From positions 2,046,001-2,110,000 of the forward strand of contig NZ_JACCFO010000001.1 in the NCBI RefSeq assembly GCF_013410565.1: DNA of 64,000 nt, given 5' to 3'. Origin of the DNA: Streptomonospora nanhaiensis (GTDB lineage: Bacteria; Actinomycetota; Actinomycetes; Streptosporangiales; Streptosporangiaceae). Positions 28,888-36,937 of the stretch are shown in pieces. A program made the translations under genes and the position numbers. Position 1 is the first letter of the stretch, and the number at the start of each line of letters is the position of its first letter. The notes beneath the pieces are model-generated. The model saw nothing but the letters and a program-made list of their open reading frames with translations. It did no database searches and had not been told where the DNA came from.

Positions 28888-29775
28888 TCAGATCACGCGG
28901 GCGAAGCGGCGCGCCGTCCAGGTCAGGGCGGCCGCGGTGCACGCGGCGACCAGCAGGACCTCAAGCGCCACCGGCGGCTGCCACCCGCCCCATTCGACGG
29001 TGGACAGAAACGCGGTGCTTTGCGCGGGACCGCCGCCGATCACCGCTTCGATGGTGCGGCGCTGGGCGTCGACCGCGTAGGTCAGCGGGTTGGCCAGGGC
29101 GATAGCGGCCATCCACCCCGGCATGGCGCTGAGCGGGAACATCATGCCCGACAGGAACAGCAGCGGGGTCATCAGCACGCCCAGCACGGTGTGGAAGGTC
29201 TGCATGCGGCGGATGGACACCGCCACGGCCGAGCCCAGCGCGGTCATGGCCAGCGCGGTCAGACTCAACTGGGCCAGCAGCGCGGCCAGCAGCCCGGGGT
29301 GGTAGGGGATCTGGACCAGTCCCGCGCACGCCAGGACCACCACCGCGTTGCAGGTGGCCACGGTGGCGCCGCCCAGGCACTTGCCCAGGACCAGGGTGGA
29401 GCGGTGCACCGGCGCCACGAGCATCTCACGCAGGAAACCGCTCTCGCGGTCCCACACGATCGACGCGCCCGCCGAGATGGCCGGCGCCTGCGCCGCCATG
29501 ACGAGCACGCCCGGGAACACGAACCGCAGGTAGGCGTCGCCGGCCGAGCCGCCGGCGCTGGACTCGTCGAGCAGGCGGGCCAGGCCCACGCCCAGGATGA
29601 ACAGGAACAGCATGGGCTGGAACAGCGAAACGGCGGCGCGGGCGGGGTCGCGGACGAAGTGCAGCATCTCGCGGCGCCACACCATGGCGCCCGCCCGCAA
29701 CTCCAGGGCCGCCCCCGTGGTGGGCGCCGGCAGGGATTCGTGAGCGGCGGGCGCGGCGCCGGCTCCGGGGGTCAC
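28888..29775 (-). CDS. cinH: Lantibiotic ABC transporter permease (CinH type)
   Basis: 295 residues, six membrane helices of the ABC-2 family as in daunorubicin-type (DrrB) exporters: FVRDPARAAVSLFQPMLFLFILG at the start, VWDRESGFLREMLVAPV (coupling segment), and VLMTPLLFLSGMMFPLSAMP. The GTG start overlaps the stop of the ATPase gene (TGA/GTG), so the two are coupled. Last gene of the cinnamycin-like cluster; it should export the lantibiotic and possibly contribute to immunity. The convergent PTS gene ends 23 bases away. Confidence 0.88.
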   Translation of the reverse strand: MTPGAGAAPAAHESLPAPTTGAALELRAGAMVWRREMLHFVRDPARAAVSLFQPMLFLFILGVGLARLLDESSAGGSAGDAYLRFVFPGVLVMAAQAPAISAGASIVWDRESGFLREMLVAPVHRSTLVLGKCLGGATVATCNAVVVLACAGLVQIPYHPGLLAALLAQLSLTALAMTALGSAVAVSIRRMQTFHTVLGVLMTPLLFLSGMMFPLSAMPGWMAAIALANPLTYAVDAQRRTIEAVIGGGPAQSTAFLSTVEWGGWQPPVALEVLLVAACTAAALTWTARRFARVI

Positions 29776-30794
29776 GTGGCGGCTCCCGGTGCGGGCTCGG
29801 CGCTGCCGGACGCGGCGACGCGGTGTCCGGTGTGGTGCATGAAGACGTCGTCAAGGCTGGGGCGGGTGACCGACACCGCGTGCACGGGCACGCCGAGGTC
29901 GGCGCACAGGCGCGGCACCAGGCTGGCGGCGTCCTCGGCGCGCAGGGTCAGGGAGTCGCCGGCGGCTGCGGCGGTCAGGCCGAAGCGCTCGCGCAGGGCG
30001 CGGGCCGCGGCGGGGTTGTCGGCCGTGCGGAGTTCGACGCGGTCGGCGCCCAGGACCGCCTTCAGCTCGGCGGGCGGGCCCTCGGTGACGACGCGGCCGG
30101 AGTCCACGATGGCGACGCGGTCGCAGTGGTCGGCCTCGTCCAGGTAGTGGGTGGTGAGGAACAGGGTGGTGCCCTCGTGCCGGCTGACGGCGCCCAGGTG
30201 GGCCCAGACGCGCGCGCGGGCGTGGGGGTCGAGCCCGATGGCGGGTTCGTCCAGGAAGAGCACGCGCGGCCGGTGCAGGATGCCCCGGGCGATCTCCAGG
30301 CGGCGGCGCATGCCGCCCGACAGCGTGCGCACGGCGGAGGCACGGCGGTCGGCCAGCCCCACGAGGTCGAGGACCTCGCAGACGCGGTGCGGCAGGCCGG
30401 CGCGCGGCAGGCCGTAGAGGTCGCCGTGGAAGCGGAGGTTCTCCTCGACGGTCAGCTCGGGGTCGAGGGTGGACTCCTGGAGGACCAGGCCGATGCTGCG
30501 GCGCACCGCGCCGGGCGCGGTGCGGGTGTCGTGGCCGCAGACCTCGGCCCGGCCCGCGGTGGGCAGCACCAGCGTGCACAGCATGGCGATGGTGGTGGTC
30601 TTGCCGCAGCCGTTGGGGCCCAGGAAGCCGAACGTCTCGCCCTGGGCGACGGTGAGGTCGATCCCGCGGACGGCCTCGACCCCCGGATAGGTCTTGCGCA
30701 GGCCGACGGCCCGGATGGCGGGGACGGAGGCCGACCCCGGGGTGGGGAGCCCGGGGTCGGTGCGCGTCCGCGGGCGGCGCCGCAGTGGGAACAA
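29772..30794 (-). CDS. cinT: Lantibiotic ABC transporter ATP-binding protein (CinT type)
   Basis: 340 residues, DrrA-like. Walker A GPNGCGKTTT, Q-loop VLQEST, signature LSGGMRRRLEIARG, Walker B VLFLDEPAIGLDP, H-loop TTHYLDEADHCD; the C-terminal DUF4162-like tail contains SVTRPSLDDVFMHHTG. The start is placed at a TTG (30794) with AAAGGA upstream because no ATG or GTG precedes the conserved region in frame at a sensible distance; this start is the least certain point. It follows the hydroxylase gene by 46 bases. Confidence 0.88.
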   Translation of the reverse strand: MFPLRRRPRTRTDPGLPTPGSASVPAIRAVGLRKTYPGVEAVRGIDLTVAQGETFGFLGPNGCGKTTTIAMLCTLVLPTAGRAEVCGHDTRTAPGAVRRSIGLVLQESTLDPELTVEENLRFHGDLYGLPRAGLPHRVCEVLDLVGLADRRASAVRTLSGGMRRRLEIARGILHRPRVLFLDEPAIGLDPHARARVWAHLGAVSRHEGTTLFLTTHYLDEADHCDRVAIVDSGRVVTEGPPAELKAVLGADRVELRTADNPAAARALRERFGLTAAAAGDSLTLRAEDAASLVPRLCADLGVPVHAVSVTRPSLDDVFMHHTGHRVAASGSAEPAPGAAT

Positions 30795-30840
30795 CCGGCG
30801 TCCTTTCCGGTGGGGGCCGCTGGTGGGAGCGGGGCGCGGC

Positions 30841-31770
30841 TCAGCCGGTGAGGCCGAGGCGCTCCCGCCAGGTGTCGGGCACGACGAACCCGAAGCTCCA
30901 GCGGTCGGAGGCGGTGGGGTTGACGATGCAGTGCCAGAACAGGCGGTCGGGGTCCTGCTCGACCTTGAAGAACCGCACGATCCGGTGCCGCTCGGTGAGG
31001 GTGACGAGTTCGCCGGTGTCGGGGTGCAGGTAGCGGAAGAACGAGGTCTTCTCGCCGGAGGAGAACGGCGGGTCGATCTCGATGACGTACATGCGCCAGC
31101 CCGGCTGGCTCCGGTTGGTGTGCCAGAGCCGGTAGCTGTCCGGCGGGTACCACATGCTGCCGGAGAAGCGGATCTCGCAGCCGAAGAGGTCCTCAAGGGC
31201 GGCGACGGTGCGGCCCTTGGCCGCGAGGTAGTCGAGGTAGCCGGGGTGGTCGACGTGCTCGTCGAGGTTGACCACGTGGAACTCGCGCTCGTTGCTGTCG
31301 GTGGGTGCCCGGTGGGTGCCGCCTTCGGCGGGGTCCTGGACGCCGGCCTCCCAGGCGCGGTACTCCGGACTGCCCGGTGCGAGGTCGGTGCTGCGGAGGT
31401 CGTCGGGGCGGTGGCGCCGGGCGAAGTCCGCGAGGTCGACGGTGGGCGGCTTGATGGCCAGCCGCGGGAGTTCGTCGAGCAGGGGCGCGAGCCCGGGGAT
31501 GTCGGTGAGCTCGTATTCGTGGTGGTAGAAGGACGTGCGCCCGGGGCCGGGGTCGGGCGCCTCGGGCGGGGGCGGCGGAGGGGCCGGTGCGTCCTCGGGC
31601 GGCACGAAGCTCGAGGAGGCCGCGGCGAGGTCGGTGAGCTGGAAGTCGAAACCGTGTCGTCGGCCCAGCGCGACCATCTCGCGGGCGGCGGTCATGGCGC
31701 GCAGTTGGGCGCTCAGCTCCCGCGACGAGTAGACCGTGCGCAGGAACTGCGTGCAGGACTCGATGGACAT
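30841..31770 (-). CDS. cinX: Aspartate beta-hydroxylase of the lantibiotic cluster (CinX type), with Nif11-like N-terminus
   Basis: 309 residues between the LanM and transporter genes, the position of cinX/durX, whose product hydroxylates Asp15 of the peptide with Fe(II) and 2-oxoglutarate. Residues 1-~55 (SIESCTQFLRTVYSSRELSA ... LGRRHGFDFQLTDLAAA) look like a Nif11 leader-type helical domain; a Pro-rich linker (57-75) follows. In the C-terminal domain H217-x-N219, H280 and R290-x-S292 are candidate iron and 2-oxoglutarate ligands (most relatives have HxD/E). ATG follows AGGGG; the gene starts two bases after the LanM stop, so they are co-translated. Confidence 0.85.
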   Translation of the reverse strand: MSIESCTQFLRTVYSSRELSAQLRAMTAAREMVALGRRHGFDFQLTDLAAASSSFVPPEDAPAPPPPPPEAPDPGPGRTSFYHHEYELTDIPGLAPLLDELPRLAIKPPTVDLADFARRHRPDDLRSTDLAPGSPEYRAWEAGVQDPAEGGTHRAPTDSNEREFHVVNLDEHVDHPGYLDYLAAKGRTVAALEDLFGCEIRFSGSMWYPPDSYRLWHTNRSQPGWRMYVIEIDPPFSSGEKTSFFRYLHPDTGELVTLTERHRIVRFFKVEQDPDRLFWHCIVNPTASDRWSFGFVVPDTWRERLGLTG

Positions 31771-31772
31771 TG

Positions 31773-34700
31773 TTACCCCTTCGCGGAGTCGGTGGCGGGC
31801 GGGTCGAGGAGGAGCACCGAGGGCACGCGGTCGGGTGCGGCCAGCCGCAGGAAGTGCATGCCCATGCCGGAGATGCCGAGCATCAGCCCGGGGAAGAAGT
31901 CGGTGCTGTCGCCGGTGATGCCGTGGCGGGCCTCGTCGAAGGTGCGCCACTGGTTCTGCACCTGCACGTTGGCCTCCAGCTGGAAGGCGGGGTCGTCGTG
32001 CAGGCGGCCGTAGCGCAGCAGGAGTTCGGCGTTGCCGGACCGGCCGTGGCAGAGGGTGTCGTTCATCAGGCGCGGGAAGTTGCGGAGGGTGGCCGCCAGC
32101 GCCACACCGGCCTCGCGCAGCAGGAGGTCGTCGTCGCGCCCGAGGAGGTCCCAGGCGCTGATGCGGCTGAGCCCGATCCCCGCGGCGCCGTTGCACCAGG
32201 CGTTGGCGTAGTGGCGGTTCTCGCGGACGACTCCTCCGCCGAAGGTGCGGAGGTCGTACCAGTCCTGGGCGGTGGTGTCGAAGTGGTGGGCCTCGTAGGC
32301 GAACGCCCGGCGGCCGGCGGCGATGAGGTCGGGGCGGTCGATGCGGACCCCGAGCTGGATGAGGGCCCACCCCATGCCGGCGGCGCCGTGGGTGAACCCG
32401 GTGAGGTCGAGCTGGGTGGGGTCGGCGCCCTGCTGCGGCCAGCTCAGGGTGTCGCCGTTGTCGCGGGCGCGGCGCAGCAGGTGGTCGGCGCAGCGGACGG
32501 CCTCGGCCAGCCCGGCGCCGTCGGCCGCGGCGGCCAGTCCCAGCAGGACGGGGATGAGGCCGGCGGCGCCGCCGAGGATGTCGAGGTGGGGGTCGGCCTC
32601 GATCCGGTCGCCCAGGCCGGCGGCGAGCCGCACCGCGCGGTCGAGCAGCGCGGGGTCGCCCCACAGGTGGTGCAGGTGGGTGAGCAGGTAGATGAGACCG
32701 CCGGTGCCGGTGAAGGCGCCGATGCGGCGGTGGTCGTCGGCGTGGGCGAGGGCGTGGTCGAGCGCGCGCTCGACCGCGGCCCGCAGCCGGGGGTCGGGGG
32801 CCAGGTGGTCGAGGTAGGCGAGGAACAGCGCGATGCCCGCGGAGCCGAGGTAGAGGTCGGCCTCGATGTCGGCCTCGACGGGGGTGCCGTTGTCGAGCCG
32901 GTAGGAGGTCCAGGGCGCGGGGGCCGAGGACGCGCGGAGCTGGTCGCACAGCCGCAGGCCGATGCGCCGGGCCTGCTCGCGCGCCGCGGTGACGAAGGAG
33001 GGGCTGGAGATCTCGCCGGTGGAGAGCCCGGCGGCGATGTAGTGCCGCTGCTGGGCGCGGTTCTCGGGCGAGAGCCGGCGGATGCGTTCGGCCGCGCTGC
33101 GCACGGGTGACTCGGCGAGGTAGGACGCGATGGCCGTGGCGTGGTCGTGGACGAGCCGGCGGTCGTGCGCCCCCACGGTGAACAGCGGGATGTCCATGCG
33201 CCACAGGGACTGCAGCTCGCACTCGGCCAGGACCCCGCGGTCGTCCCAGACGCGGGGCGCTGCGCGCACGACCCGGGCGAGGAGGTCGACCTCAAGGGGG
33301 TCGGCCAGCGCCTTGGGGTGGCGGGCGGACAGCAGCGCCTGGGCGTAGACCTGGGTGGCCCGGTTGATGAACCGCAGGGTGGCGCCGGCGAAGGCGTCGG
33401 CGACGTGCTGGGCCGTGCGGTCGGGCCACTGGCGGAACCAGTCGTAGACCCGGGTGAACCCGGTGGTGATGGCGTCGGCGTGGTCGCCGGGGTCGACCAG
33501 GCGGTCGCCGAGGAAGACGCGGTTGGCGGCGGCGGGGTCGACCCGGACGCCCTCCTCGTGGGTGACGGAGGCGGCGAAGGTCATGCGGGGGCCGCTGACG
33601 CGCGGGACGGCGATGGGCATCTCGTAGGAGACGCCGCCGGCGTAGCCGCTGATGTTCATGGCGGCGGCGCCGTCGGCCGCGGCCGCGGGGCGCGGCCACT
33701 CGAGCAGGCCGGTGTTGAAGACGGAGTCCAGGAGGGTGCCCGAACCCTCGATCTGGCCCTCGGGGCGGGCGCCGAGCACGGTCTCGCAGTCGCAGACGTA
33801 GGCGTTGCCGTCGGCCACCAGGATGTTCTCGAAGTGGAGGTCGCCGCCGCCCAGGACGTAGAACAGGGCGAGGTAGCCGCCGAGCTGGCGGTAGACGCGG
33901 TCGGCGTCGGCGGCGGATCCGACGCGGTTGCGGCCGGCGGGGATGGCGGCCTCGTAGCCGTAGGGGCCGCGGTCGAGGACGGCGCGGGTGGCGAAGTCGA
34001 CGGCGCCGGCCTCGCGGATGCGGGTGAGCAGGTCCTGGACGGCGGATTCGGCGGCGATGCTGCGCGGCTTGTAGACGAGGCTGCCGGTGCGGCCGCCGGC
34101 GAGGTCGACGTGGACGAACGCCACCTGCTGCGCGCCGGCGTGGGGGTCGGAGTGCCCCAGGCTGAGCCCTCGGAACCGGGTGATCGGGCTCTCGAAGAAG
34201 GCCGCGGAGAGGTCGGCGGCGTCGGCGCAGAGGCGGTCGACGAGCTGGGCGCCGTAGTCGGCGAGCAGGCGCGTGACGTGGGCCAGCCACCGGCCCAGGA
34301 CCGGGTAGCGCAGGTAGAAGCGGTGGTAGGCGGCGCCGTCGGCGAAGGCGGTGTCGAGGAAGGCGAGGTAGTCGGCCTCGGTGGCGGTGGACTTGTCGAG
34401 GCCGGTCCGGGCGCAGTGGACGTTGCCCTCGGCCTCGACCGCCCAGGCGAGGTGGAGTTCGAACCGGTCGAGCAGGTGGCCCTGGAGGTCGGCGATGAGG
34501 GCGCGGTCGATGAGCCCGGAGCGCGCCACGGGGTTGCGGTCGCGGGCGGATTCCAGGCGGCGGCCGAGTTCGAGGAGGAAGGGTTCGCAGGCGGTGGCCA
34601 GGCGGCCGTAGTAGGTGCCGGGGGCGCGCCAGGGGGCTCCGGGGTCGGCGGCGGGCGCGTGGTCGTAGGTGTCGAGGGCGGCCTGGTAGGTGGGCAGCCA

Positions 34701-35024
34701 GTCGCTGTGGAGGTCGGTGAAGACCTTCCGGACGGAGTCGTCGGCGTCGGGCAGGAGGAGTTCGTGCAGGCGGTAGGCGGTGAGGATGCGGGCGTAGTCG
34801 TGCTGGTCGCGGCCGTCGGCGGGGGTGGCCGGGGAGCCGGGCTGCGGCTGGCGCCGCAGCCGGTCGGCGAGCTTGGCCGAGGTGCGCTCGATCTTCCAGG
34901 TGTCGAAAGGGTCGAGCCCGGCCGCCGCGCCCGGACGGGGGTCGCCCAGCGCGTCGACGATCCGGATGCGCTCCGCGAGGTTGCACGCACGGGCCGCGAT
35001 GTCGGCGGGGTAGGGGTGTCCCAT
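31773..35024 (-). CDS. cinM: Class II lanthipeptide synthetase LanM (CinM type)
   Basis: 1083 residues. The N-terminal dehydratase half (DUF4135-like) phosphorylates and eliminates Ser/Thr; a kinase-like active-site region is seen at KPRSIAAESAVQDLL and GGGDLHFENILV, CDCE. The C-terminal LanC-like cyclase has all three zinc ligands: C944 (WCNGAAG), C992 and H993 (LCHGRSG). It builds the three lanthionine/methyllanthionine bridges of the peptide. Start: the ATG at 35024 behind AGGAG, preferred to an in-frame start at 35144 that would overlap the hairpins after the precursor gene and add 40 low-complexity residues. Confidence 0.95.
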   Translation of the reverse strand: MGHPYPADIAARACNLAERIRIVDALGDPRPGAAAGLDPFDTWKIERTSAKLADRLRRQPQPGSPATPADGRDQHDYARILTAYRLHELLLPDADDSVRKVFTDLHSDWLPTYQAALDTYDHAPAADPGAPWRAPGTYYGRLATACEPFLLELGRRLESARDRNPVARSGLIDRALIADLQGHLLDRFELHLAWAVEAEGNVHCARTGLDKSTATEADYLAFLDTAFADGAAYHRFYLRYPVLGRWLAHVTRLLADYGAQLVDRLCADAADLSAAFFESPITRFRGLSLGHSDPHAGAQQVAFVHVDLAGGRTGSLVYKPRSIAAESAVQDLLTRIREAGAVDFATRAVLDRGPYGYEAAIPAGRNRVGSAADADRVYRQLGGYLALFYVLGGGDLHFENILVADGNAYVCDCETVLGARPEGQIEGSGTLLDSVFNTGLLEWPRPAAAADGAAAMNISGYAGGVSYEMPIAVPRVSGPRMTFAASVTHEEGVRVDPAAANRVFLGDRLVDPGDHADAITTGFTRVYDWFRQWPDRTAQHVADAFAGATLRFINRATQVYAQALLSARHPKALADPLEVDLLARVVRAAPRVWDDRGVLAECELQSLWRMDIPLFTVGAHDRRLVHDHATAIASYLAESPVRSAAERIRRLSPENRAQQRHYIAAGLSTGEISSPSFVTAAREQARRIGLRLCDQLRASSAPAPWTSYRLDNGTPVEADIEADLYLGSAGIALFLAYLDHLAPDPRLRAAVERALDHALAHADDHRRIGAFTGTGGLIYLLTHLHHLWGDPALLDRAVRLAAGLGDRIEADPHLDILGGAAGLIPVLLGLAAAADGAGLAEAVRCADHLLRRARDNGDTLSWPQQGADPTQLDLTGFTHGAAGMGWALIQLGVRIDRPDLIAAGRRAFAYEAHHFDTTAQDWYDLRTFGGGVVRENRHYANAWCNGAAGIGLSRISAWDLLGRDDDLLLREAGVALAATLRNFPRLMNDTLCHGRSGNAELLLRYGRLHDDPAFQLEANVQVQNQWRTFDEARHGITGDSTDFFPGLMLGISGMGMHFLRLAAPDRVPSVLLLDPPATDSAKG

Positions 35025-35078
35025 GGTCCAGTCGGCTCCTGCCGTCGAAGGAGGCGGCGCGAGCGCCGCGGTGGCCGG

Positions 35079-35133
35079 GCGGGTCGGCGGCGCCGACCCG
35101 CCACGGGCCCGGGCGGGGACCCGCCCCGCCCGG
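35079..35133 (-). terminator. Two tandem hairpins between precursor and synthetase genes
   Basis: Perfect 10-bp stems at 35109-35133 (CCGGGCGGGG / CCCCGCCCGG, 5-base loop) and 35079-35101 (GCGGGTCGGC / GCCGACCCGC, 3-base loop), directly downstream of the precursor stop. Such read-through terminators between lanA and lanM let the small precursor be expressed far above the enzymes. Confidence 0.7.
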
Positions 35134-35147
35134 ACCCCGCTCACGGG

Positions 35148-35390
35148 CTACTGCTTGGAGGAGCCGTCGCACACGACGGTGAAGGGCCCCCAGCTGCAAC
35201 TGGTGCTGCACGCGAAGATCTCGCTGCTGACGATGCCGTCGGTCCAGGAGTCGATGGCCGCCTGGTCGGCCTGCTCCACGGTGGCGGGAAGCGCGTCGGC
35301 GGTGAGGCCGAAGGCGGTGGGGTCGGCGAGGACCGCTGCGCGGAACTCGGCGTCGACGGCGGCCTGGTGCATCAGCGTGGTGGTGGACAT
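35148..35390 (-). CDS. cinA: Cinnamycin-like lantibiotic precursor peptide
   Basis: 80 residues from an ATG preceded by AGGAG. Leader 1-60 (MSTTTLMHQAAVDAEFRAAV ... DSWTDGIVSSEIFA) closely follows the CinA leader pattern; the core 61-80 starts at Cys after IFA, the cinnamycin-type cleavage position. Core: C1 S2 T3 S4 C5 S6 W7 G8 P9 F10 T11 V12 V13 C14 D15 G16 S17 S18 K19 Q20. All bridge-forming positions of cinnamycin are kept: Cys1-Ser18 (here Ser, so lanthionine instead of methyllanthionine), Ser4-Cys14, Cys5-Thr11, Ser6-Lys19 (lysinoalanine) and Asp15 for hydroxylation. Differences include Trp7, Val12, Ser17, Ser18 and an extra C-terminal Gln. Members bind phosphatidylethanolamine; F10, G8-P9 and OH-Asp15 form that pocket. 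Confidence 0.95.
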   Translation of the reverse strand: MSTTTLMHQAAVDAEFRAAVLADPTAFGLTADALPATVEQADQAAIDSWTDGIVSSEIFACSTSCSWGPFTVVCDGSSKQ

Positions 35391-35473
35391 GTGTTCTCCT
35401 TCGGTGCGTTGGCGATGTGCCGATTGCGTGAGGTGGTGGCGGACCGGGCGGCCCTGGCGGGCGGCCCGGTGGT

Positions 35474-35830
35474 TCACTCGGACTTCTCGGCGATGAGACG
35501 CATGCCGGTCTGCTGCTCGACGTTGCTGAGTTCTCGCATGGCGGCGCCCATGTTGTCGCTGTCGCTCTGCCAGTCGACCACCTGCCTCTCCTCAGGCGTG
35601 ATGTCGTCACGGAGCCAGAAGGACTCCAGCCACCCCTTCACGGCGTGGGGGTGGAGGTCGGGGACGGGTCCGACGTGGGCCAGCAAGGGCTCCTCGTGGA
35701 CGGCGAGGGCGGTTTCGAGGAGTTCGCGGAGTTTGCCGTCGGGCGGCAGCAGGGAGCACAGGACCACCAACTGCTGGATGCGGCGGATGGTGTCGACGCC
35801 TTCGTAAATGGTCGGTCCCTTTGCGCTCAT
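35474..35830 (-). CDS. cinorf7: Lysinoalanine-forming protein (Cinorf7/DurN type)
   Basis: 118 residues, matching the ~120 of Cinorf7/DurN, and in the same place directly upstream of the precursor gene. The protein is small, soluble, helical and acidic (TIRRIQQLVVLCSLLPPDG, HAVKGWLESFWLRDDITPEERQVVDW). DurN-type proteins promote attack of Lys19 on dehydroalanine-6 to close the lysinoalanine bridge; both residues are kept in the core here. The ATG at 35830 follows GAAGG. The assignment rests on size, position and sequence resemblance. Confidence 0.85.
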   Translation of the reverse strand: MSAKGPTIYEGVDTIRRIQQLVVLCSLLPPDGKLRELLETALAVHEEPLLAHVGPVPDLHPHAVKGWLESFWLRDDITPEERQVVDWQSDSDNMGAAMRELSNVEQQTGMRLIAEKSE

Positions 35831-35978
35831 CGGCGAACCTTCCTGAAGTGGTCCATGGGGAGGCGTGGCCGCGCAGACGCGGCGGATGCGAAACGCGGTT
35901 TCCACCGGTCCGCCGTCGCCGTGTTCACGCACATGGCGATCGGCCGGTTTTCCCGCGGATCCGTGCCAGTCATATAGG

Positions 35979-36007
35979 AGCATAGACGAAAGGCGTCGGC
36001 GCGTCCT
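35979..36007 (-). promoter_or_regulatory. Probable promoter of the lantibiotic operon
   Basis: In the 258-base gap upstream of cinorf7 the minus strand shows an AT-rich stretch with TATGCT (35979-35984) as -10 and only a poor -35 (AGGACG, 36002-36007) at 17 bases, the usual state of promoters needing a SARP activator. Short AGTAAG/AGTCGAG-like repeats lie just upstream (36005-36030), but a strict 11-base heptamer repeat was not confirmed. It would drive cinorf7 through cinH. Confidence 0.35.
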
Positions 36008-36088
36008 TTCACTCGACTTACTTACTGCTTTCATTTGCCGCACCGCAGCAGCGTCCACACCGCCGGTAAATGGACTTTTCTCGGTAAT

Positions 36089-36937
36089 TCACGGCTCGAT
36101 GCCGCTCTTCTCGGGCAACGTCCCGGTTTGCCCCGTTCGCGCGGCGGGCACCGGGACCGCGCCGGCGGCCGCGAGGGCGGGATCGCCGCGCAGCACGGCG
36201 AGGTGGAGTTCGCGCGACTCCGGACAGGGGTCCATGCCGGTTTCGTCGCGCAGGCGCGCGCTGAGTTCGGCGTAGGTCTCCAGCGCCTCGACGCGCCGGC
36301 CGGACCGGTAGAGGGCGAGCACGAGCTGGCGCCAGAACCCCTCGTGGAAGGGGAACTGCCGCACGAGGTCGCGCAGTTCGGCGATCAGGGGGTCGTGCCG
36401 GCCCCGGGCCAGGGCGAGCGCGTGCGCGCGTTCGCGCACCAGCAGCCATTCCTCGGTGACGCGCGCGACGAGGTCGCGCCGCAGCGCCTCGGAGCGGACC
36501 TCGGGCAGGATGGGCACGCTCCACAGCGCCAGGGCCTGGCGCAGGGCCGCGGACTCGGAGTCGGGGTCGCGGCGCGCGGCGGCCTGGCGGGCGTGCGCGG
36601 CGAGCCGCCGGAAGCGCAGGAGGTCGAGCTGGTCGGGGCCGGCCTCGATGAGGTAGCCGGCCGAGCAGGTGCGCACCACCGCCGACAGACCCGCCGCGTG
36701 CTGGTCGAGGGTGTGCCGCAGCCGGGTCAGGCACGTGTGCAGCGCGGCCCGGGGGCTGTGCGGGCGGGCGCGGTCCCAGACCCAGCCGACGAGCTGGTCC
36801 TGGGGCACGGGCTCGTTGGCGCTGAGCAGCAGGGCCGCCAGCAGCGCCCGCTGCTTGCCCGCGGACAGCCGGACCGGATTGCCGTGCACGGCCACCCGGA
36901 GCGGCCCCAGGACGGAGAAAACCACCCCTTGCGCCAT
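36089..36937 (-). CDS. cinR1: SARP family transcriptional activator (CinR1 type)
   Basis: 282 residues. N-terminal OmpR-like winged helix (VFSVLGPLRVAVHGNPVRLS, KQRALLAALLLSANEPVPQDQLVGWVW, recognition region ALHTCLTRLRHTL, wing TCSAGYLIEAGPDQLDLLRF) and a C-terminal bacterial transcriptional activation domain (FPFHEGFWRQLVLALYRSGRRVEALETYAELSARLRDETGMDP), the exact SARP arrangement. It sits upstream of the lantibiotic genes on the same strand and is the likely cluster activator. The ATG at 36937 is chosen (GGGGA upstream); an in-frame ATG at 37027 would add 30 residues. Confidence 0.9.
   Translation of the reverse strand: MAQGVVFSVLGPLRVAVHGNPVRLSAGKQRALLAALLLSANEPVPQDQLVGWVWDRARPHSPRAALHTCLTRLRHTLDQHAAGLSAVVRTCSAGYLIEAGPDQLDLLRFRRLAAHARQAAARRDPDSESAALRQALALWSVPILPEVRSEALRRDLVARVTEEWLLVRERAHALALARGRHDPLIAELRDLVRQFPFHEGFWRQLVLALYRSGRRVEALETYAELSARLRDETGMDPCPESRELHLAVLRGDPALAAAGAVPVPAARTGQTGTLPEKSGIEP

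Follow-up and report, generated by a model that had tools for sequence, protein, structure and literature searches.

A compact cinnamycin-type lantibiotic gene cluster with a slightly unusual core peptide in Streptomonospora nanhaiensis

Gene content of the locus

The stretch of Streptomonospora nanhaiensis DNA analysed here (64,000 nucleotides, G000:C1:2046001-2110000 of a 6.28 Mb genome; hereafter the window) carries at positions 28888-36937 seven co-oriented genes on the minus strand, all with intact frames. Judged by sequence, this is an authentic cinnamycin-family lantibiotic cluster with a slightly unusual core peptide (Table 1). The initial annotation had proposed a SARP-type activator and homologues of Cinorf7 (DurN), CinA, CinM, CinX, CinT and CinH; all seven are present on this strand and within this span, and for all but CinX the names are supported by whole-length family matches in Pfam or NCBIfam. 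The precursor belongs to the DurB-like family PF19398 (E 3.2e-29, 101.5 bits, cut-off 26.6) and to the cinnamycin family NF033431 (E 3.4e-29, 101.3 bits, cut-off 35), and the synthetase scores as a class II LanM protein (TIGR03897, E 1.2e-152, 509.8 bits, cut-off 304). The latter contains the motifs WCNG (943) and CHG (992), which we take to be the zinc site, and matches LicM2 (PDB 6st5) with E 4e-50. DurN matches lysinoalanine synthase (PDB 6c0g) with E 1.5e-45 and has no NCBIfam match at E 0.001. Both durN and cinA are single-copy in this genome, and CinTH is the sole transporter recognized by Pfam within the cluster. In a class-wide sample DurN was present in 5 of 394 genomes, four of these from the window's own family, and it was absent from 14 control genomes. 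This rarity indicates that the match to the cluster is not due to chance.

Table 1. Genes and sequence features of the cluster, with positions in the window
Feature	Position	Strand	Length	Details
SARP-type activator (CinR1/KyaR1-like)	36089..36937	-	282 aa	ATG at 36937; BTAD PF03704 E 2.1e-32, Trans_reg_C 1e-06
Probable SARP-binding site	36006..36033	-		TGAAAG-N5-AGTAAG-N5-TGAAAG; hexamers every 11 nt, upstream of durN
DurN/Cinorf7-like lysinoalanine synthase	35474..35830	-	118 aa	PF19375 E 1.7e-43, 147.3 bits
CinA-like precursor	35148..35390	-	80 aa	leader 1-60; core 61-80 CSTSCSWGPFTVVCDGSSKQ at 35210-35151
Two GC-rich hairpins, candidate transcriptional attenuator	35078..35137	-		between cinA and cinM
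CinM-like class II lanthionine synthetase	31773..35024	-	1083 aa	DUF4135, LANC_like (Pfam)
CinX-like Asp15 beta-hydroxylase	30841..31770	-	309 aa	Arg220 codon 31113-31111; His262
CinT-like ABC exporter ATPase	29772..30794	-	340 aa	TTG start, ribosome-binding-site-like GGAAAGGA upstream; ABC_tran E 4.9e-31, DrrA1-3_C
CinH-like ABC-2 permease	28888..29775	-	295 aa	GTG start overlaps cinT stop; ABC2_membrane E 7.8e-32

Conservation and relatives

All seven genes are kept in the same order in Streptomonospora mangrovi S1-112 (L002/L032). The ratios of non-synonymous to synonymous substitution (dN/dS) against this species ranged from 0.18 for CinH to 0.53 for CinT, indicating purifying selection in each of them. 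The SARP protein is 90.8% identical to its counterpart (dN/dS 0.19) and the precursor 94%. No described product of the S. mangrovi cluster turned up in the literature searches. The gene order SARP-durN-cinA-cinM-cinX-cinT-cinH is also found in Actinoallomurus, Marinactinospora and Nocardiopsis trehalosi. Among the sites that are identical in the other 16 sequences, CinM shows one mild replacement (A751V), and DurN does not depart at any of 23 invariant alignment sites.

Marinactinospora thermotolerans DSM 45154 (L034), the producer of mathermycin, shares with the window this gene order, the lack of a linked CinL and an unlinked CinL-like methyltransferase. It differs in its core (CASTCSFGPFTIACDGTTK), in its CinX, which is 64% identical, and in the VTT-domain (DedA-like) gene that adjoins its SARP gene. 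The clusters for cinnamycin, duramycin and kyamicin share homologues of CinA, CinM, CinX, DurN, CinTH and SARP with the window (PMC6974636), but they also carry CinL, CinR and CinK, all three of which are missing from it. CinL is linked with CinKR in all three; this linkage was not treated as defining for cinnamycin-type clusters. The coerumycin cluster of Actinomadura coerulea TMS085 resembles the window in having few genes and in that no CinL is described for it; its transport gene is presented as a single protein (PMC12837462), whereas the window has both cinT and cinH. The core of the reference strain A. coerulea DSM 43675 (G234, L025) is CASTCSSGPFTFACDGSTK. In the Actinomadura loci L042-L048 the CinT-like region is spanned by one long frame, and a CinH frame is not listed apart from it. 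This agrees with the one transport gene reported for coerumycin. Within about 7 kb of durN these loci gave no SARP match.

The distribution of the cluster was surveyed in 345 genomes of the order, some of them incomplete. CinA was found in 32 of these, at 34 places (E 0.001). Four places (in G070, G072 and G076, and the second place in G009) were dropped, which leaves a canonical core at 30 places in 29 genomes. For a scan of the collection the alignment of CinA varied too much; that of DurN was used instead and yielded 17 loci.

Core peptide

The core assigned to residues 61-80 by the initial annotation was confirmed as stated. Its claim of a new variant holds in so far as no published report of this core was found in the open-access literature searched (the string CSWGPFT gave 0 matches). 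The variant is, however, less special than was claimed. The S. mangrovi core, CSTSCSWGPFTVVCDGSTK, is identical at 18 of 19 positions and differs only by Thr18 and the lack of Gln20; the codons are AAG-CAG-TAG in the window and AAG-TAG-CAG in S. mangrovi, so that the stop of the window lies one codon later. Ser18 is shared with N. trehalosi (L006), which makes 2 of the 30 canonical precursors, and 13 of the 30 extend beyond Lys19 by a tail (Q, P, G, G, GQ, A, Q, G, N, A, N, HHHH and VG). The tail varies among relatives; it is probably of little consequence, or trimmed. The longest, in L024, consists of four histidines (...CDGTTKHHHH). In cinnamycin and duramycin residue 18 is Thr, and Lys19 is the last residue.

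A published motif for cinnamycin-type cores is CxxxCSxGPFTxxCDGxTK (PMC12837462). The window keeps its fixed positions except for the replacement of Thr18 by Ser, and adds Gln20 after Lys19. Several relatives have Leu10, Ile10 or Thr10, and with the variation at residue 18 and in the tail this makes the published motif look too narrow. The earlier inference that with Ser18 the 1-18 bridge is not a methyllanthionine but a lanthionine follows from the chemistry. Since Ser4 gives a lanthionine as well, the predicted product would contain two lanthionines and one methyllanthionine. Its computed monoisotopic mass would be 2021.807 with Gln20 and 1893.748 without it, and 15.995 less if unhydroxylated.

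The precursors at L073, L074 and L075 (in genomes of group g30) and at L076 (the second place in G009) resemble the canonical ones in the leader only and were therefore left out of the canonical count. These loci have a cinnamycin-type leader with CinM, CinT and CinH homologues, and cores such as CPGTHHCIHTHVCRKTY and CPSTHHCNHTYACHPTY, those of g30 being of the kind CPxTHxCxHTxxCxxTY; phmmer found neither DurN nor CinX in the 13-15 kb examined. From their sequences they look like a different, His-rich group of class II lanthipeptides. A second cinA in G258 (L077:8162-8773) encodes the core CISTCSYGPTTIICDGATKVG, and no CinM, CinX or DurN was found in the 11.7 kb examined around it.

Regulatory sequences

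In the cin cluster three hexameric repeats lie upstream of cinorf7, whose transcript falls 1800-fold upon loss of cinR1 (PMC5408092). The hexamer triplet of the window corresponds in position and is a probable binding site for the SARP protein: a similar triplet with 11-nt spacing was the top score in all seven upstream regions scanned (the window and six of the 17 named loci), a score reached by 7-35 of 500 shuffles per region. At the level of sequence, a SARP activator and 11-nt-spaced hexamers before durN are thus both present. The hairpins between cinA and cinM occupy the site at which cin has a functional attenuator (PMC5408092).

Another reading takes the seven genes for a silent relic. 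Clusters of this family may be cryptic; kyamicin was undetected in wild strains on 13 media (PMC6974636). Against such a relic stand the intact frames, the purifying selection on every one of the seven genes since they diverged from those of S. mangrovi, and the conserved SARP-type box, which together make it improbable.

The CinX variant

Two features go beyond the initial annotation: an arginine at position 220 of CinX, and the absence of cinL and cinKR from the window. CinX was aligned with 16 relatives. Two sites that are invariant in all of these carry a different residue in the window (E220R and P262H). An eighteenth sequence (L078) also has Glu220, so that 17 of 17 relatives have Glu where the window has Arg. 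The codon is CGG as against GAG in S. mangrovi, which amounts to two base changes; the S. mangrovi CinX for its part departs alone at one invariant site (L101I). Residue 220 lies within the motif WHTNE, three residues past the presumed iron ligand His217 and, in the AlphaFold model (pLDDT 79.7, pTM 0.79), at the end of a strand of the core. Further along the model, His280 and Arg290 lie on strands where the iron and 2-oxoglutarate ligands are found in this fold, and they presumably have these roles.

Pfam gave no match over the whole length of CinX. With Foldseek the model matched PHD2 first (best E 3.1e-6), followed by other 2-oxoglutarate-Fe(II) oxygenases, with prolyl 4-hydroxylase among the top matches. 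Among the 50 matches listed the TM-scores were 0.25-0.49 with high root-mean-square deviations, for which reason the model can indicate only the fold class, that of a 2-oxoglutarate-Fe(II)-oxygenase-like protein. A likeness to human AspH, considered from residue spacing alone, is not claimed; no AspH was among the 50 matches. Residues 1-47 (window 31770-31630) match a Nif11 domain (E 7.8e-08). This domain is otherwise known from the leaders of ribosomally synthesized and post-translationally modified peptides, and in CinX it may serve for docking in the way of a leader.

When cinX is deleted in S. cinnamoneus, the product is deoxycinnamycin, which is inactive (PMC5408092). If Arg220 inactivates CinX, a deoxy peptide with Asp15 would be made that does not kill by binding phosphatidylethanolamine (PE), and the cluster would be drifting or serve another role. 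This is suggested by the replacement of Glu in WHTNE in only one of 18 sequences and by the second radical change, P262H. Also, the dN/dS of CinX (0.39) is above that of CinM, DurN and CinA, and this lineage is also the one in which residue 18 of the core and the C-terminus are unlike those of S. mangrovi. On the other hand, the gene has no stop or frameshift, its dN/dS is below 1, and Glu220 is not at the usual HxD position. The changes unique to the window affect 4 of 128 conserved sites as compared with 3 of 128 in S. mangrovi, giving no sign of general decay. We consider an inactive CinX unlikely on balance, though far from negligible. A CinX homologue is present, but with Arg220 the +16 Da predicted initially is uncertain. 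Such a natural variant could show which residues the hydroxylase needs.

Immunity genes and the host membrane

In S. cinnamoneus self-protection is brought about by Cinorf10/CinL, which methylates PE under the control of CinKR; when cinorf10 is expressed constitutively cinKR becomes dispensable (PMC5408092). With CinL, CinK, CinR and the methyltransferase of the window's own genome as phmmer queries, no match was found in the window at E 1e-3. The flanks of the S. mangrovi and Marinactinospora clusters likewise gave no CinL, CinK or CinR at E 1e-8. All three adjoin the cluster in Kutzneria (L037), in a metagenome-assembled genome (L040) and in S. roseoverticillatus (L041), and at the same threshold none was found in the available flanks of the other loci, Nocardiopsis potens (L038) excepted. 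The window genome encodes one strong CinL-like methyltransferase (match at G000:C1:3513378-3514004, gene at 3513312-3514010), 1.4 Mb from the cluster and 47% identical over residues 16-223, besides four further weak matches.

In N. potens a gene resembling lipid methyltransferases lies directly behind cinH (L038:16971-17537), with no CinK or CinR, a position that fits immunity by lipid methylation. It scores 98.3 bits with OlsG and 55.8 with PmtA, both below the cut-offs, and the genome (G131) has an unlinked copy besides. Its sequence suggests that it may be a local immunity gene that arose separately. In six loci (L034, L036, L037, L038, L040 and L041) the minus strand upstream of durN has a DedA-like gene close to the cluster; none was found in the window. 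The two that were tested, from L034 and L041, contain the domain VTT_dom (PF09335). Some DedA-family proteins move PE across membranes, and a part in immunity is conceivable.

The interpretation that we regard as probable is that of a compact, selectively maintained class II cinnamycin-type cluster, with a PE-binding product from which the producer is protected by housekeeping lipid methylation. What was observed of this is the gene content and order, the precursor, the families, the selection, the SARP-type box, the missing cinL and cinKR and the unlinked methyltransferase. The SARP protein would switch on durN-cinA-cinM-cinX. CinM would dehydrate Ser4, Ser6, Thr11 and Ser18 and form the bridges Cys1-Ser18 and Ser4-Cys14 (lanthionine) and Cys5-Thr11 (methyllanthionine), CinX would hydroxylate Asp15 unless disabled by Arg220, and DurN would join Ser6 to Lys19. 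With the leader cut behind Ala60 and the peptide exported by CinTH, the mature product would bind the PE of competitors. In the producer the housekeeping lipid N-methyltransferase would convert PE towards phosphatidylcholine (PC). We propose that the producer is protected because of this conversion, and that a dedicated CinL with its CinKR switch is therefore unnecessary; immunity would be due to a masked or absent target. The cluster would add a candidate PE-binding lantibiotic with a lanthionine as first bridge and a C-terminal tail.

Several points weigh against this interpretation. The product may be unhydroxylated as a consequence of Arg220 in CinX. The methyltransferase scores 40 bits against a PmtA cut-off of 250 and 56.9 against 350 for the ornithine-lipid enzyme OlsG, so far below the cut-offs that its substrate is only a prediction. 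It occurs in all six Streptomonospora genomes, four of them without cinA, and is thus not there for the cluster. A lipid table lists PC for 5 of 5 Streptomonospora species, in favour of such methylation, and PE for 2 of 5, with PME in S. arabica and 2MPE in S. salina (abbreviations of the table; PMC8448680); since PE is listed in two species, methylation may be incomplete. The fold of 35025-35147, the region of the hairpins (minimum free energy -83.7, z -1.90), was equalled in stability by 8 of 200 shuffles and is weak by itself. One genome outside the order (G654, L078, core CKTTCSSGPITIVCDGNTK) carries a cinnamycin-type cluster together with phosphatidylserine (PS) decarboxylase; no CinL was found in the 20 kb examined, and its CinL-like matches were weak (best E 3.2e-4). 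The product, the transcript and the lipid state of this strain are predictions from sequence.

The relation between the cluster and the host membrane was followed in the 345 genomes, with a methyltransferase threshold of E up to 1e-20 and at most 8 candidates per genome scored among the matches listed. PS decarboxylase, the PE-making step, was found in 234 genomes and the methyltransferase in 72, all within the 234. Canonical cores are present in 6 of the 72 genomes with both enzymes, in none of the 162 with PS decarboxylase and no methyltransferase, and in 23 of the 111 without PS decarboxylase. The last carriers belong to two genera, the Actinomadura group (19, g56) and the Actinoallomurus group (4, g3). 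Fisher tests, which ignore phylogeny, gave p 6e-9 by genome and p 0.010 by genus; as the carriers fall in six genera, phylogeny confounds these counts. In line with the absence of this step, the phospholipids of Actinomadura membranes are described as non-nitrogenous (type PI; PMC8631618), and A. coerulea (G234) has no PS decarboxylase match and only weak CinL-like matches (best E 2.1e-4). Outside the order, the three clusters with linked CinL, CinK and CinR are all in genomes with PS decarboxylase. No further carrier was found in 35 genomes from the order of G654.

Protection by the CinTH exporter alone has to be considered here. The unlinked methyltransferase would then be irrelevant and would serve the synthesis of PC or ornithine lipids. 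CinTH is the only transporter in the cluster, the methyltransferase is present in Streptomonospora with or without cinA and scores higher with OlsG than with PmtA, and G654 carries the cluster with PS decarboxylase and no clear CinL. Yet S. cinnamoneus has cinTH, and there the loss of cinorf10 alone leads to sensitivity to duramycin (PMC5408092); in addition, none of the 162 genomes with PS decarboxylase and no methyltransferase has a canonical core. Immunity by export alone is for these reasons judged the less convincing explanation and rather unlikely.

Returning to protection by lipid methylation, it is suggested, quite tentatively and with some doubt, that host membrane chemistry decides which genomes can carry cinnamycin-type clusters. 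Clusters with linked CinL and CinKR would be those of PE-making hosts; the others would persist where there is no PE (Actinomadura, Actinoallomurus) or where a housekeeping enzyme methylates it (the Nocardiopsis/Streptomonospora group), and the Streptomonospora cluster would in this way have lost, or never needed, the immunity and feedback genes. The g30 hosts with PS decarboxylase carry a different core, and G654 is an exception. How the coerumycin producer protects itself is a question posed in print (PMC12837462), to which this membrane-lipid rule would, if true, suggest an answer. PS decarboxylase is present, and the methyltransferase absent at E 1e-20, in the three g30 genomes that encode a cinA-like leader. 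These were considered as a breach of the pattern; in view of the different core and the lack of DurN and CinX nearby they were set aside. The threshold matters in G070 (g30), which was counted as methyltransferase-negative with a match to the CinL profile of E 3.6e-20.

Neighbouring genes

Among ten flanking genes scanned with Pfam, the products are PTS EIIA and EIIC components, a HAD hydrolase, an acyltransferase, two TetR regulators, an MFS protein, an AMP-binding enzyme and a GDSL lipase, with one unmatched. In S. nanhaiensis 12A09 a class IV lanthipeptide region is labelled Duramycin in a published cluster table (PMC12842786).

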